Below are positions 4,729-41,480 of a stretch of DNA of 64,000 bases, one piece after another. The DNA lies in the NCBI RefSeq assembly GCF_011801145.1, contig NZ_CP046172.1:496001-560000 (forward strand). The letters are read 5' to 3'. Made by a program: the position numbers and the translations under genes. Source of the DNA: Nocardia arthritidis (GTDB taxonomy: Bacteria > Actinomycetota > Actinomycetes > Mycobacteriales > Mycobacteriaceae). The first letter of the stretch is position 1. Every line of letters starts with the position of its first letter. Below the pieces are notes generated by a model that made no database searches, was not told the origin of the DNA, and saw nothing but the letters and a program-made list of their open reading frames with translations.

Positions 4729-5607
4729 ATGACCAGACCCGGGAGCGTCGGCCCGCGCGGTGGTCGTTCCTGCGTGGTCATGGGCGTCGTGAACGTCACA
4801 AGCGATTCGTTTTCCGACGGCGGCAAATACCTCGACACCGAGCTCGCCATCGCGCACGGGGTCGAGCTCTATCGCGCGGGCGCCGACATCATCGATGTCG
4901 GGGGCGAGTCGACCCGGCCCGGCGCGGTCCGGATCGATCCGGAGACCGAGGCGGCGCGGGTGGCGCCGGTGATCGCCGGGCTGGTCGCCGCGGGCGTGCC
5001 GACCAGCGTCGACACCATGCGGGCCGGGGTCGCCGAGGCGGCGCTCGCGGCGGGTGTATCGGCGGTGAACGACGTCTCCGGCGGCCGTGCCGATCCCGAT
5101 ATGGTGAAAGTCGTTGCGGCCGCGGATGTTCCGTGGATCCTCATGCATTGGCGGGCGGGCGCCGACTATCGGCACACCGGCCCGGCCGACCACTACGACG
5201 ATGTGGTCGCCGAGGTGCGTGCCGAACTGGGCGCGCAGGTGGACAAGGCCGTCGCCGCGGGTGTGGACCCGTCGCGGCTCATCCTGGATCCCGGCCTGGG
5301 TTTCGCCAAGAACGCCGAACACAATTGGGCATTGCTGGCCGCGCTGCCCGAATTCGTCGCGGGCGGCCTGCCGATCCTGATCGGCGCCTCCCGCAAACGG
5401 TTCCTCGGCACGCTGCTCGCCGACGAATCGGGTCCCCGCCCACCCGACGGCAGGGAGACCGCCACCGCGACCATCTCCGCGCTGGCCGCCCTGCACGGCG
5501 CATGGGGTGTGCGCGTGCACGATGTGCGCGCCTCGCTCGACGCCATCGCCGTCACCGACGCCTGGCAGCGCGCCGCCGGGCCGAGAACCCGAGAGGCCAT
5601 CGCATGA
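4729..5607 (+). CDS. folP: Dihydropteroate synthase FolP
   Basis: Condenses 6-hydroxymethyl-dihydropterin pyrophosphate with p-aminobenzoate to dihydropteroate; it is the sulfonamide target. The 292-residue TIM barrel shows the DHPS signature MGVVNVTSDSFSDGG, the pABA/pterin loop GGESTRPGA and the conserved SRKRF lysine region. An ATG at 4729 is chosen; GTG at 4714, overlapping the folE stop as GTGA, would add five residues and cannot be excluded. Its TGA overlaps the ATG of the mini-ORF that follows. The complete active-site motifs argue for the functional FolP1 type rather than the FolP2 paralogue. Confidence 0.95.
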   Translation: MTRPGSVGPRGGRSCVVMGVVNVTSDSFSDGGKYLDTELAIAHGVELYRAGADIIDVGGESTRPGAVRIDPETEAARVAPVIAGLVAAGVPTSVDTMRAGVAEAALAAGVSAVNDVSGGRADPDMVKVVAAADVPWILMHWRAGADYRHTGPADHYDDVVAEVRAELGAQVDKAVAAGVDPSRLILDPGLGFAKNAEHNWALLAALPEFVAGGLPILIGASRKRFLGTLLADESGPRPPDGRETATATISALAALHGAWGVRVHDVRASLDAIAVTDAWQRAAGPRTREAIA

Positions 5608-5684
5608 CCGAGTCAGGGCCCGGAGGAGGCAGCCTGCGTAACCACGGAGGGCCCCTCGGGCAGGCAAAGAAGGTAACAGCATGA
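5604..5684 (+). CDS. Linker mini-ORF between folP and folB (26 aa)
   Basis: ATG at 5604 overlaps the folP stop (ATGA) and its TGA at 5682-5684 overlaps the folB ATG at 5681. The peptide begins MTESGP, contains a ten-residue insert ([10 protein letters not shown]) and ends [10 protein letters not shown]. The same start and end sequence recurs in a 15-residue mini-ORF between ispD and ispF. The conserved sequence and double ATGA overlap suggest a mobile or duplicated translational-coupling linker rather than a functional peptide. Whether it is translated is inferred. Confidence 0.6.
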
Positions 5685-6103
5685 CCGGATCCGAAGTTTT
5701 TGTGGCACAGAGTGATCCGATGATCGAGCGGGGTGTCGACCAGATCCAGCTGCGCGGGCTGCGCGCCTTCGGCCACCACGGCTGCTTCGAACACGAGCGC
5801 CGCGACGGGCAGGAGTTCGTCGTCGACCTGAACCTGTGGGTGGATTTCGCCGCGGCCGCGGCATCCGACGATCTGGCGACCACCGTCGATTACGGTGCGC
5901 TGGCCGAGCGGGTGGTCGCGATCATCCAGGGCCCGCCGCGCAACCTCATCGAGAAGGTGGTCTCCGAGATCGCCGACGAGGTGATGACGGATCCGCGGAT
6001 CGAATTCGTCGAGGTGGTGCTGCACAAGCCGCATGCGCCGATCCCGCACCCGTTCGACGATGTTCGCGTCGTCACCACCCGGCAGCGTCGGGAGGCGGAA
6101 TGA
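5681..6103 (+). CDS. folB: Dihydroneopterin aldolase FolB
   Basis: Cleaves 7,8-dihydroneopterin to 6-hydroxymethyl-dihydropterin and glycolaldehyde. The 140-residue protein has the FolB core [17 protein letters not shown] and a C-terminal [17 protein letters not shown], which carries the conserved lysine and pterin-binding residues. The N-terminal ~18 residues extend beyond the usual start, so an internal ATG (MIERGVDQ) is possible. The annotated ATG overlaps the stop of the upstream mini-ORF, which favours it. Confidence 0.94.
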
Positions 6104-8201: not shown

Positions 8202-8398
8202 TTCGCAACGCGGCCCGTTGCCCGTGCTGATATCGCCTTGATCGGCGGAGGGCGGCGCGGATGTGAGCCGCAAATCACGTAGCGAGCGCATGGCATCGAC
8301 AAATGCCGGGCCGATATCCTCGTTACGTACGTCTGGTACCCGCACGGCGGGACTGGAACATGATGTTCGATTTGCGGTATTCACCAGCCCCTGCGCTG

Positions 8399-8445
8399 CC
8401 GCCTCCGGGCCTGACGCTCATACCGCGACGAGAGGACAGCGTTGA
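8399..8445 (+). repeat. Degenerate start-site linker, copy before DUF2520 gene
   Basis: The segment TCCGGGCCTGACGCTCAT followed by GAGAGGACAGCGTTGAC resembles the linker before ispF (TCAGGGCCCCTCGGGCAT...AAGGACACCGCATGAC). One reading frame ends [13 protein letters not shown] with its TGA overlapping the TTG start at 8442. That frame is open back to a GTG at 8263, so a small coupled ORF is possible. Relationship to the MTESGP family is tentative. Confidence 0.35.
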
Positions 8446-15076: not shown

Positions 15077-15119
15077 CGCGGTTCGCCGAAGCGGCACCAT
15101 GGATACCGTGCGAAGGTCA

Positions 15120-15184
15120 TTGGGGGCCGCCTCCTCGGCCCGACGCTCATGCCCCCGATGAGAGGCGAGGTAACGGCGCTGTGA
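15120..15184 (+). repeat. Degenerate start-site linker, copy before FHA gene
   Basis: The segment GCCCGACGCTCATGCC...GATGAGAGGCGAGG closely resembles that at 8407-8435 (GCCTGACGCTCATACC...GACGAGAGG). It contains an 11-residue mini-ORF (MPPMRGEVTAL, 15149-15184) whose TGA overlaps the GTG of the FHA gene, the same coupling arrangement as the MTESGP linkers. Kinship to those is tentative; kinship to the 8.4-kb copy is clearer. Confidence 0.4.
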
Positions 15185-19462: not shown

Positions 19463-19798
19463 CCACCTTTCGCGTACAGCTGAAGTAGCGCCTCTCGTCG
19501 ACCACCCGGCCACGCACGGAGCGAGTCTTACGAGCGACGTCCGTGGCCCGCGAGACTCCGACCCAATCTGTTCGCTCTAGGCAAAAACGCATCGGAAACG
19601 AAACCCGCAACGCTCACGTTATGAGTGAATGACCGTGCCGTCGCTGGTCACACATAGGGTGGACTGGAGGCGGCAAGAACCCCTGCCAACTAGAGTGGAG
19701 GCAGGGGGCCGCAACCCCCGGGCTTCATGGCAGGCTGACGCAACAGTCGAACTGAAGCGTCGGCCGCCAGAATGTCGGAGCAGGAGAGTGAGGGAGCG
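19463..19798. other. clpC upstream region
   Basis: Non-coding stretch between the lipase and clpC. Besides the ClgR-like site at 19571-19585 and the clpC ribosome-binding site AGGGAG, I see no gene, repeat or terminator. The long leader is consistent with regulated expression of a protease ATPase. Confidence 0.5.
19571..19585 (+). promoter_or_regulatory. ClgR-like operator upstream of clpC
   Basis: TTCGCTCTAGGCAAA fits 13 of 15 positions of the pattern WWCGCYNANRGCGWW that I recall for the actinobacterial ClgR activator, which controls clp genes in corynebacteria and mycobacteria. It lies about 215 bp before the clpC start. The two mismatches and the distance keep this tentative. Confidence 0.4.
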
Positions 19799-22345
19799 AT
19801 GTTCGAGAGGTTCACCGACCGCGCGAGGCGTGTCGTTGTCCTGGCCCAGGAAGAGGCCCGGATGCTCAACCACAACTACATCGGTACCGAGCACATCCTG
19901 CTGGGGCTGATTCATGAGGGTGAGGGTGTCGCGGCCAAGTCGTTGGAGTCGCTCGGCATTTCGCTGGAGGGTGTCCGCAGCCAGGTGGAGGAGATCATCG
20001 GGCAGGGTCAGCAGGCCCCGTCCGGTCATATCCCGTTCACCCCGCGCGCCAAGAAGGTGCTGGAGCTGAGCCTGCGTGAGGCGTTGCAGCTGGGCCACAA
20101 CTACATCGGCACCGAGCACATTCTGCTGGGCCTGATCCGTGAGGGTGAGGGTGTGGCGGCGCAGGTGCTGGTGAAGCTGGGTGCGGATCTGAATCGTGTG
20201 CGCCAGCAAGTCATTCAGCTGCTGTCCGGATATCAGGGCAAGGAGCCGGTCGAATCCGGCTCGCGCGGTGAGGCGGGCACCCCGTCCACCTCGCTGGTGC
20301 TCGACCAGTTCGGCCGCAACCTGACCCAGGCCGCGCTCGAGGGCAAGCTCGACCCGGTGATCGGCCGCTCGAAGGAGATCGAGCGGGTCATGCAGGTGCT
20401 CTCCCGCCGTACCAAGAACAACCCGGTGCTGATCGGTGAACCCGGTGTCGGTAAGACCGCCGTGGTGGAGGGCCTGGCCCAGCGCATCGTCAACGGTGAG
20501 GTGCCCGAGACGCTGAAGGACAAGCAGCTCTACACCCTGGATTTGGGTTCGCTGGTGGCGGGCAGCCGGTATCGCGGTGATTTCGAGGAGCGGCTGAAGA
20601 AGGTCCTCAAGGAGATCAACACCCGCGGCGACATCATCTTGTTCATCGACGAGCTGCACACGCTGGTGGGTGCGGGCGCGGCCGAGGGCGCGATCGACGC
20701 GGCCTCGATCCTGAAGCCGAAACTGGCCCGCGGCGAGCTGCAGACCATCGGCGCGACCACGCTGGATGAGTACCGCAAGTACATCGAGAAGGACGCCGCC
20801 CTGGAGCGGCGGTTCCAGCCGGTGCAGGTCGGTGAACCGACGGTGGAGCACACCATCAATATCCTCAAGGGCCTGCGCGACCGCTACGAGGCGCATCACC
20901 GGGTGTCGATCACCGATGGCGCGCTGGTGGCTGCGGCGACGCTGGCCGACCGCTACATCAACGACCGGTTCCTGCCGGACAAGGCGATCGATTTGATCGA
21001 CGAGGCGGGTGCGCGGATGCGGATCCGTCGCATGACCGCGCCGCCGGATTTGCGGGAGTTCGACGACAAGATCGCTGAGGCGCGTCGGGAGAAGGAGTCG
21101 GCGATCGACGCGCAGGACTTCGAGAAGGCTGCCCGGTTGCGGGATAAGGAAAAGCAGCTCGTCGCCAAGCGGGCCGAACGCGAAAAGCAGTGGCGCTCCG
21201 GGGATCTGGACGTGGTCGCGGAGGTCGACGACGAGCAGATCGCCGAGGTGCTGGCGAACTGGACCGGGATCCCGGTGTTCAAGCTGACCGAGGAGGAGAC
21301 CACCCGGCTGCTGCGGATGGAGGATGAGCTGCACAAGCGGATCATCGGCCAGGAGGACGCGGTCAAGGCCGTGTCCAAGGCGATCCGCCGCACCCGCGCC
21401 GGGTTGAAGGATCCGAAGCGTCCGTCGGGGTCGTTCATCTTCGCCGGTCCCTCCGGTGTCGGGAAGACCGAGCTGTCCAAGGCCCTTGCCAACTTCCTGT
21501 TCGGCGACGACGACGCGCTCATCCAGATCGATATGGGCGAGTTCCACGACCGGTTCACCGCCTCCCGGCTGTTCGGTGCCCCTCCCGGATATGTGGGGTA
21601 TGAGGAGGGCGGTCAGCTCACCGAGAAGGTGCGGCGCAAGCCGTTCTCGGTGGTGCTGTTCGACGAGATCGAAAAGGCGCATCAGGAGATCTACAACACC
21701 CTGCTGCAGGTGCTCGAGGACGGCCGCCTGACCGACGGTCAGGGCCGGACCGTGGACTTCAAGAACACGGTGCTGATCTTCACCTCGAACCTGGGCACCT
21801 CCGATATCTCCAAGGCCGTCGGCCTGGGCTTCACCCAGTCCAACAACGAGGGCTCCAACTACGAGCGGATGAAGCTGAAGGTCAACGACGAGCTGAAGAA
21901 ACACTTCCGGCCCGAGTTCCTCAACCGCATCGACGACGTGATCGTGTTCCACCAGCTCACCAACGACCAAATCGTGGAAATGGTGGATCTGATGATCGGG
22001 CGCGTCGCCACCCAGCTGAAGAACAAGGACATGGCGATCGAGCTCACCCCCAACGCCAAGAACCTGCTCGCCAAACGTGGTTTCGACCCCGTGCTCGGCG
22101 CCCGGCCACTGCGGCGCACCATCCAACGCGAGATCGAAGACCAACTCTCGGAAAAGATCCTCTTCGGCGAAATCGGCGCAGGCCAAACCATCAAGGTCGA
22201 CGTCGAAGGCTGGAACGGCGAGGGTGCGGGCGAGGACGCCAAGTTCACCTTCACCGGCAAGGCCAAGCTGACCAAGTCGGAGCCGGCCGAGGACAAGCCG
22301 GTCGCGGCGCTCGCCGGTGACGCTCCGGCGGCCGCCGGGGAGTAG
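19799..22345 (+). CDS. clpC: ATP-dependent Clp protease ATPase subunit ClpC
   Basis: Class I Hsp100 unfoldase that feeds the ClpP1P2 protease. At 848 residues it is the size of mycobacterial ClpC1. It has two N-terminal Clp_N repeats (each with [14 protein letters not shown]), AAA domain 1 with Walker A GEPGVGKT (213-220), a central UVR/coiled-coil region (about 420-455), AAA domain 2 with Walker A GPSGVGKT (550-557) and a C-terminal ClpB-D2-small domain. An acidic/Ala-rich tail follows. ATG after AGGGAGCG chosen; an in-frame ATG 9 codons upstream is unlikely. Confidence 0.97.
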
Positions 22346-40258: not shown

Positions 40259-40957
40259 GTGAACGGTTCTGACAGCGACGATCTCGTCGTTGCACTGGTA
40301 CCTGCCGCCGGCCGCGGCGTTCGCCTGGGTGGAGCCGCACCCAAAGCGTTCGTCGCCGTCGGCGGCACGCCTATGGTCCGGCTGGCCGTCGACGGGCTGA
40401 TCGCCTCCGGCGCGGTCGACCGGATCATCGTGATGGTTCCCCCCGAATTCGTATCGAGTGCGGTTGCCCTGCTGCCCGAGACGAATTCGGTAGACGTGGT
40501 GGTCGGCGGGGCCGAGCGCACCGATTCGGTGCGCGCCGGTATCGCCGCCGCGCCCGAAGCCGCGTACTTCCTGGTCCACGATGCCGCCCGCGCCCTGACG
40601 CCGCCCGACCTCATCGCCAGGGTGGCGGCCGAATTGCGTGCGGGTCGTCCGGCCGTCGTGCCCGCGCTGCCGGTGGTCGACACCATCAAATCGGTCGACG
40701 AGTTCGGCGCGGTGACCGGCACCCCGGATCGTTCCGGGCTGCGCGCCATTCAGACCCCGCAGGGCTTCGCGGCCGAGCTGCTGCGTTCCGCGTACGCGAC
40801 CGATACCAACGCCACCGATGACGCGGGACTGGTCGAGCGGCTCGGCGCCCGGGTGCACACCATCCCCGGCGACCCGATGGCTTTCAAGATCACCACGCCG
40901 CTCGACCTCCGGCTCGCGCACGCGCTGCTCGACGAGCGAACGGCGGGCCTGGCATGA
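40259..40957 (+). CDS. ispD: 2-C-methyl-D-erythritol 4-phosphate cytidylyltransferase IspD
   Basis: Third MEP-pathway enzyme, making CDP-methylerythritol. The 232-residue Rossmann-like protein has [18 protein letters not shown] (CTP site), [11 protein letters not shown] and the C-terminal [19 protein letters not shown] 2 nt after the carD stop. Its TGA overlaps the ATG of a 15-residue linker ORF that leads to ispF. Confidence 0.95.
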
Positions 40958-41001
40958 CCGAGTCAGGGCCCCTCGGGCATGCCGAGAAGGACACCGCATG
41001 A
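40954..41001 (+). CDS. Linker mini-ORF between ispD and ispF (15 aa)
   Basis: Encodes [15 protein letters not shown]. Its ATG overlaps the ispD stop (ATGA) and its TGA overlaps the ispF ATG. Apart from lacking the ten-residue insert, it is nearly the same as the 26-residue linker between folP and folB, including DNA identity over ATGACCGAGTCAGGGCCC and CCCCTCGGGCA. An IspDF fusion is known in other bacteria; here the linker may instead couple their translation. Confidence 0.6.
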
Positions 41002-41480
41002 CCGCGGCGGATATGCGGGTCGGCATCGGCAGCGACGTGCACCCGATCGAATCCGGCCGTCCCTGCTGGATGGCCGGGCTGCTGTTCGACGGTGACGACG
41101 GCTGCGCGGGCCACTCCGACGGCGATGTCGCCGCGCACGCGCTGTGCGACGCGCTTCTGTCGGCCGCCGGACTCGGCGATGTCGGCGCGGTATTCGGCAC
41201 CGGACGGCCGGAGTGGGCGGGCGTCTCCGGCGCCGCGATGCTCAAAGAGGTGCGAAGGCTGCTGGAGGAGGCGGGCTTCGGCATCGTCAATGCCGCGGTG
41301 CAGGTCATCGGCAATCGGCCGAAGATAGGGCCGCGTCGAGCCGAGGCGCAGCAGGTGTTGGGCGAACTGCTCGGCGCGCCCGTCTCGGTTTCCGGAACGA
41401 CCACCGACGGACTCGGGCTGACCGGTCGCGGGGAGGGCGTCGCCGCCGTCGCCACCGCGCTGCTGCACTCCTGTCGCTGA
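40998..41480 (+). CDS. ispF: 2-C-methyl-D-erythritol 2,4-cyclodiphosphate synthase IspF
   Basis: Forms MEcPP in the MEP isoprenoid pathway. The 160-residue trimeric enzyme shows the metal ligands D and H in GIGSDVHPI and H in CAGHSDGD, plus the C-terminal [15 protein letters not shown]. The ATG overlaps the stop of the linker mini-ORF. Confidence 0.96.

Follow-up and report, generated by a model that had tools for sequence, protein, structure and literature searches.

The closest described counterparts of the repeat analyzed here are the MIRUs of mycobacteria, an architecture of this kind for which an excerpted review cites Supply 1997 (PMC12548453). According to the same excerpts, MIRUs are inserted at start codons and contain an internal ORF that is coupled to the next gene at a spacing of −4 nt (PMC12548453). 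Parts of several papers describe them as scattered, often tandem and apparently mobile (PMC12548453; PMC4213456; PMC3914561), with sizes of 46 to 101 bp, and of 77 and 53 bp at senX3-regX3 (PMC4213456; PMC3914561). Their range is given as confined to M. leprae and the M. tuberculosis complex in one excerpt (PMC4213456) and as many mycobacteria in that of a review (PMC12548453). Also from excerpts, the length of a repeat before fpg1 is linked to fpg1 expression in M. tuberculosis (PMC2734929), and ribosomes may be handed to a gene by a short ORF before it, with a stop that overlaps the start of this gene (PMC12548453). MIRUs are used for the typing of mycobacteria; their movement and their effect on translation are largely inferred in the parts of the literature compared.

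The Nocardia repeat shares most of this architecture. Its units measure 74 to 78 bp, which is within the MIRU range of 46 to 101 bp, and are scattered over many loci per genome. They form tandem arrays, with a copy number differing between genomes at cysH-cysD, and are located at start codons, where their internal ORF shares 4 nt with each neighbouring gene; shortened forms also occur. The genus is a different one, and the two are likened by architecture as described, not by sequence. A scan with one putative MIRU typing primer gave no match. A hairpin matched to its flank and a rule connecting phase and Shine-Dalgarno sequence are seen in the Nocardia repeat and are absent from the MIRU descriptions compared, as far as these were excerpted.

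Two further systems are similar in single traits. REP/BIME elements with their RAYT transposases are likewise dispersed hairpin-forming repeats, but most of the 17 genomes surveyed are without a Y1 transposase match, and both stop and start codons are overlapped by the Nocardia units. Short coupling ORFs, in the excerpts compared, also have a stop overlapping the next start and possibly deliver ribosomes, whereas the ORF in Nocardia belongs to a dispersed repeat and is found again and again in operons unrelated to one another. Among the matches listed from openly licensed PMC papers, no report of such a repeat family in Nocardia was found. The kind is already known from mycobacterial MIRUs, and the Nocardia family appears to be new as far as searched. 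Of the original prediction, a duplicated or mobile translational-coupling cassette not described before, the dispersed, mobile-looking character and the position at start codons were retained, whereas the kind as such was already described. With up to 112 matches per genome, several phases and many empty sites, the family makes both questions left by the MIRUs, movement and translational effect, testable, and its variable arrays could serve as typing markers for Nocardia.

Two Copies of One Repeat at folP-folB and ispD-ispF

The window, i.e., the whole stretch of 64,000 nt of Nocardia arthritidis DNA analyzed here, contains two mini-ORFs at the positions predicted for them, one of 26 codons plus stop between folP and folB (5604–5684) and one of 15 codons plus stop between ispD and ispF (40954–41001). 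The predicted ATGA overlaps with the upstream stop and the downstream start are present at all four junctions. The features of both sites are:

4729..5607, plus strand: folP, upstream gene, start putative (TIGR01496, 295.7 bits)
5604..5680, plus strand: full 77-bp unit at folP-folB (E = 3.8e-24, model R1)
5667..5680, plus strand: element-borne Shine-Dalgarno-like AAGG stretch with spacer, 5′ of the folB start (sequence reading)
5681..6103, plus strand: folB, downstream gene (TIGR00525, 117.3 bits)
40259..40957, plus strand: ispD, upstream gene (TIGR00453, 213.4 bits)
40954..40997, plus strand: 44-bp unit at ispD-ispF (E = 8.8e-8, model R1)
40984..40997, plus strand: element-borne Shine-Dalgarno-like AAGG stretch with spacer, 5′ of the ispF start (sequence reading)
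40998..41480, plus strand: ispF, downstream gene (TIGR00151, 166.4 bits)

The folP stop is the TGA at 5605–5607, inside the 5′ ATGA (5604–5607) of the element, and the folB start at 5681 is inside its 3′ ATGA (5681–5684). Correspondingly, the ispD stop (TGA, 40955–40957) is found inside the ATGA at 40954–40957 and the ispF start (40998) inside that at 40998–41001. Both units have a length of 2 mod 3 and carry AAGG.

The shared origin assumed in the original prediction was borne out by BLAST with E-values of 6.5e-6 and 0.0033 for two pieces of the folP copy; after these, the next match of the ispD copy in its own genome (10.0 Mb) had an E-value of 0.52. Exact copies of the 18-base block ATGACCGAGTCAGGGCCC are present in this genome only at the folP-folB and ispD-ispF sites. 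The ispD unit (44 bp) corresponds to the folP unit (77 bp) except for 33 bp that the latter has between direct GGGCCC repeats, and the 44-bp form is also present at a different site in another genome (L088). Both mini-ORFs were confirmed by sequence comparison as copies of one repeat.

A Repeat Family in the Genus Nocardia

Further copies in related genomes, proposed as a check of the original prediction, were found when the ispD copy was used for BLAST, with matches at E ≤ 0.02 in 75 out of 148 genomes of the genus. The copies are many and are located at start codons, where a lack of other copies or random positions had been named as evidence to the contrary. A sequence-only model was derived from an alignment of the folP copy with 29 others from the BLAST loci (30 sequences in all). 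With at most 150 candidates scored per genome, it matched 112, 56, 29, 22, 18 (own genome) and 10 times in six whole genomes (E ≤ 0.01). The two window copies are the only close ones in the own genome, where the other matches inspected are partial or diverged. The exact core pattern was found at 24 loci in named genomes, all 24 labelled Nocardia.

Among 401 genomes of the taxonomic family, 54 match at E ≤ 0.001, of which 51 belong to the own genus (own genome included). The remaining three are from other genera, and two of these genomes are 66% and 75% complete. Among the genomes listed, G063 is a same-genus genome without a match. The plasmid search gave a single 28-base match (E = 0.6, Streptomyces) and the phage search for the repeat no match; spread by plasmid or phage was rejected on these results. 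A large Nocardia family of short (74–78 bp), mobile-looking, MIRU-like repeats is well supported by these sequence matches. Eleven matches (best E = 6.0e-9) were observed in G161, a 66% complete genome of another genus, and may represent transfer, contamination or a wider range of the repeat.

Unit Structure, Arrays and Shortened Forms

The 5′ part of the unit reads NNN-[ATGA]-NCGAG or NCGG, followed by TCAGGGCCC, GGAGGAGGCAGC, NN, GCGTAACCACG, NA and GGGCCC. The GGGCCC is followed by an arm complementary to the 5′ start region, which ends in [T/G]CAT-NNN, and the 3′ end consists of a short spacer, often AAAGGA, then CACAGC and [ATGA]. Most units have periods of 74, 75, 77 or 78 bp. Tandem arrays of 2 to 5 units with periods of 71 to 78 bp are common; the number of units at cysH-cysD varies between genomes, and some arrays have length series of 75-75-74 or 78-77, others of 77-77 or 74-74.

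Six shortened forms, chosen by eye, are 44, 44, 45, 18, 18 and 30 bp long, and none is 1 mod 3. At cysH-cysD, two loci (L344, L345) have 18-bp remnants, ATGACCGAAGGGCACAGC and ATGACCCGGAGACACAGC, in which both unit ends are kept and which may be footprints of deletion or excision. At what is apparently the same junction before an RluA-type gene (L142, L143, L159, L164, L262), the 77-bp subtype is found in some genomes and another subtype in G110, which looks like repeated insertion or replacement.

A conserved peptide as the purpose of the mini-ORF is not supported: units of 0 mod 3 exist alongside those of 2 mod 3, and there are forms of 18, 30, 44 and 45 bp. The core GTCAGGCCCGGAGG-GGCAGC looks similar to the SRP apical loop. 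SRP RNA or another known RNA was rejected, as Rfam gave nothing for this core. At gathering scores, Rfam had no match in the window, and a search of 14 loci at E ≤ 10 gave two matches, both below the gathering score and away from the element.

Insertion Sites and Their Empty Counterparts

In a loose set of 102 non-redundant sites, the 5′ end is NTGA in 85 cases, 75 of them ATGA. Among 94 parsed units, 84 have no stop for at least 95 codons in the frame of the terminal NTG, compared to 0 and 57 for the other two frames. For a set of 77 non-redundant first units, in which flanks sharing at least 24 of 40 bases were collapsed and a few may be inner units with an unparsed predecessor, 60 units show 100 or more open codons in the frame that the 5′ TGA closes (other frames, 41 and 10). 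Taken alone, this open-frame test is weak.

The downstream products were named with NCBIfam for ten proteins chosen from a longer list. Nine score above the NCBIfam cut-off and the tenth, ClpP-like, just below. They comprise CysD, HemC, HemA, the acetolactate synthase small subunit, a TIGR00730/LOG family protein, 3-hydroxyisobutyryl-CoA hydrolase, 4-hydroxy-2-oxovalerate aldolase, homoserine dehydrogenase and an RluA family protein. Given this diversity, the operons carrying the repeat are unrelated.

For individual sites, the loci kept by the search were surveyed, with 30 at most per search out of 148 genomes. The folP-folB element was found in the own genome only, among 27 readable of 28 listed loci (L284–L311; L307 unreadable; 30 fetched), and the same was true for ispD-ispF (30 of 30 loci). 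G009 has a plain ATGA overlap at each of the two junctions, and each overlap fits the frame of the stop before it and that of the start after it. Of 29 readable among 30 cysH-cysD loci, 6 are occupied, 1 has an 18-bp remnant and 22 are empty. The empty locus L372 and the occupied locus L373 have ATGACGG and the sequence beyond it in common; the 3′ ATGA is therefore that of the host. The site following a gene that ends in ..RFDEALG* is occupied in 2 and empty in 18 of 20 readable loci, leaving out, from 30, seven without the pattern at the place examined, two with other genes and one that was cut. Empty sites, with an ATGA overlap and no element, are present in relatives. A compensatory change within one cysH insertion (L270 vs. 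L137/L373) was considered and rejected; because these units differ at many other positions, separate cysH insertions are possible.

The Hairpin Arm Matches the Upstream Flank

In the 77 first units, the inner arm is complementary to the flank bases −1, −2 and −3 in 99, 97 and 83%, respectively, compared to 82, 92 and 46% when the arms were shuffled among sites. The observed values were reached in 0, 1 and 0 of 5,000 shuffles. At positions −4 to −6, complementarity is at chance. In 52 inner tandem copies, the own flank is matched at −3 in 42%. The looser set of 102 sites agreed with this at −1 to −3; the folP copy has a mismatched arm at −3. The pairing of the inner arm with the three bases 5′ of the ATGA, apparent from this covariation between sites, is a new feature.

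Two sites allow a comparison with empty orthologues. At the ..RFDEALG* site, GG precedes the ATGA in 18 of 18 empty orthologues, and the flank therefore predates the insertion. Eight occupied copies of this site from other loci have an arm starting with CC (7) or TC (1), where GC is usual; one of the eight (L113) is unpaired at −3. The occupied loci of the site survey have GGG vs. CCC (L391) and CGG vs. CCG (L375). At cysH-cysD, the empty flanks end in TC (22 of 22) and the occupied ones in GC or AC, so that the flank differs between empty and occupied sites whereas the arm does not.

With RNAalifold, the covariation term for 30 copies was +0.14, which gives the hairpin no net support. In single-copy folding, the window copies were no better than shuffled sequences (z = −0.98 and −0.10), and three other copies were better (z = −2.24, −2.17 and −3.61). 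For the 77-bp subtype, RNAalifold drew a switch with the inner CATGC pairing alternatively with one start or the other; this was rejected because the covariation at −3 tracks the upstream flank and not the inner copy's own flank. An asymmetry of wobble pairs was likewise set aside as proof of RNA-level selection and is suggestive only, with GT+TG at 36 vs. AC+CA at 22; counts of 35 vs. 9 are obtained only when two positions, chosen after viewing the data, are dropped. Template switching can perfect stems of this type, as stated in the excerpted literature (PMC8794818; PMC7202029). RNA-level selection would have the same effect, and either cause may lie behind the perfection of the stem.

Unit Length, Reading Frame and Shine-Dalgarno Sequence

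For the analysis of unit lengths, 160 units with a 5′ NTGA were parsed from fetched loci, which comprised the best matches and hand-picked genomes and left out the folB and ispF loci. The parsing demanded a 5′ NTGA and, in effect, a 3′ [ATG]TGA; nine units without an [ATG]TGA boundary within 40 bases were excluded, resulting in 151 units. The length is 2 mod 3 in 98, 0 mod 3 in 52 and 1 mod 3 in 1 of these. The near absence of 1-mod-3 lengths (1/151) is a new observation. Internal stops interrupt the ATG frame in 2 of 151 units, compared to 151 and 82 of 151 for the other two frames. In 0-mod-3 units, the mini-ORF runs in frame through the next start. Of the units that end an array, 23 of 28 are 2 mod 3, compared to 23 of the 56 inner units (Fisher p = 4.3e-4; sampled units come from chosen loci and share descent, and the p-values of this section overstate their independence).

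Among the 2-mod-3 units, 86 of 98 have a Shine-Dalgarno 4-mer (AAGG, AGGA, GGAG or GAGG at −16 to −4); among the 0-mod-3 units, 12 of 52 do, and the single 1-mod-3 unit does not (2 vs. 0 mod 3, Fisher p = 2.3e-15). Neither this p-value nor that for length is to be taken literally, because the units share ancestry and a single change can affect unit length and Shine-Dalgarno sequence at once. By subtype, the ratios for 2 mod 3 vs. 0 mod 3 are 29/30 vs. 2/27 and 14/15 vs. 4/16; in these subtypes other than 77 bp, a single change in the Shine-Dalgarno region may alter both properties together. For the 77-bp subtype the rule is weak (39/47 vs. 5/7). A Shine-Dalgarno sequence is thus usual in units that stop at the next ATGA and unusual in units that are read through in frame, which is also new.

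Proposed Mechanism and Alternative Explanations

The explanation that fits these data best, to which we assign a probability of roughly 0.8, is that of MIRU-like Nocardia insertions with a sequence constrained in such a way that ribosomes pass on to the next gene, the coupling role being deduced from phase and Shine-Dalgarno pattern. The repeat would insert where a stop and a start overlap (NTGA) or at a gene's start codon, after which NTGA would stand at both ends. A ribosome finishing the upstream gene at the first ATGA would restart on the ATG of the element, open the hairpin and then translate about 25 codons. In units of 74, 77 and 44 bp (2 mod 3), it would stop at the next ATGA and restart on the gene via the Shine-Dalgarno sequence of the element, whereas in units of 75 and 78 bp (0 mod 3) it would pass through the next ATG in frame, where this sequence is unneeded. 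With these two modes, an insertion would be nearly transparent to translation of the operon, and such transparency is strongly suggested by the unit sequences. The inner arm would stay complementary to the upstream flank via RNA-level selection or via template-switch repair of the quasi-palindrome. Should an unbiased sample confirm the rules on phase and Shine-Dalgarno sequence, they would be natural evidence that restart at ATGA overlaps matters, and it would then matter in many operons.

A selfish DNA repeat without bearing on translation, with position and phase reflecting merely where insertions are tolerated, is possible, if clearly less probable, and differs from the preferred explanation mainly in emphasis. 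No benefit of the repeat is demonstrated and empty sites are common, and tolerance alone predicts the avoidance of 1-mod-3 lengths and of internal stops; it does not obviously explain why the Shine-Dalgarno sequence is lost in in-frame units and retained in the last unit of arrays. The arm could also have a part in targeting. It is rather unlikely that the arm selects, or is rewritten from, the target flank within a two-state grammar that makes insertions translationally silent. The strongest form of this reading, in which the arm (TCAT-NNN) is a guide that pairs with the NNN-ATGA of the target strand at insertion and complementarity precedes insertion, appears equally doubtful. IS200/IS605 elements choose their targets by base-pairing guide sequences, arm and flank covary across sites, and at the ..RFDEALG* site the flank GG predates the insertion (18 of 18 empty), with arms there of CC or TC where GC is usual. 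The occupied cysH-cysD flanks (ACAGC, ACCGC, ACCAC), however, are unlike all 22 empty ones (..TC), which points to a change at or after insertion, and an IS200-type Y1 transposase is absent from 14 of 17 genomes, including one with 56 matches.

The same transposase survey bears on REP-like palindromes moved by a RAYT (Y1) transposase. The units are short, dispersed and hairpin-forming as such palindromes are, but PF01797 was detected in 3 of 17 genomes only. It is absent from the own genome and from G061 (56 matches) and present in G063, for which no repeat match is listed, and many copies overlap start codons instead of being located extragenically. RAYT/Y1 mobilization was rejected as very improbable on the absence of PF01797 from 14 of 17 genomes, where a divergent Y1 could escape the profile. 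A one-off duplication in this chromosome, or chance similarity, would be in line with just two close copies in the own genome and is refuted by dozens of copies at other junctions and in other Nocardia genomes. The preferred explanation remains that of translationally constrained, MIRU-like insertions.

Minus-Strand Relatives and Type-B Hairpins

Two weaker relatives named in the original prediction (8399–8445 and 15120–15184) are no additional mini-ORFs of the folP and ispD type and turned out to be misread, as the family match is on the opposite strand:

8391..8427, minus strand: truncated type-B relative, at the predicted 8399–8445 (36 of 37 bases shared with a type-B sequence)
15106..15153, minus strand: weak type-B relative, at the predicted 15120–15184 (local score 43)

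The local score of 8391–8427 is 70, compared to at most 64 in 300 random window stretches, which possibly contain true repeats. That of 15106–15153 is 43, compared to at most 34 in 300 random stretches, and this match is the weaker one. Both relatives are located just 5′ of gene starts on the plus strand.

Type-B sequences have a similar core within a longer hairpin (GCGGCRTGAGCGTCAGGCCC...GGGCCCGCGAAYGCCGC). Further type-B relatives are present in the own genome (L118, L120, L122–L124, L126, L127); several copies are located directly at the stop codon of a gene, and most are without the 3′ portion with Shine-Dalgarno sequence and ATGA. A direct repeat of 147 nt with 71% identity (19810–19956 and 20035–20181 of the window) was observed inside an ORF of 857 aa (19772–22345) and is probably a repeated protein domain.
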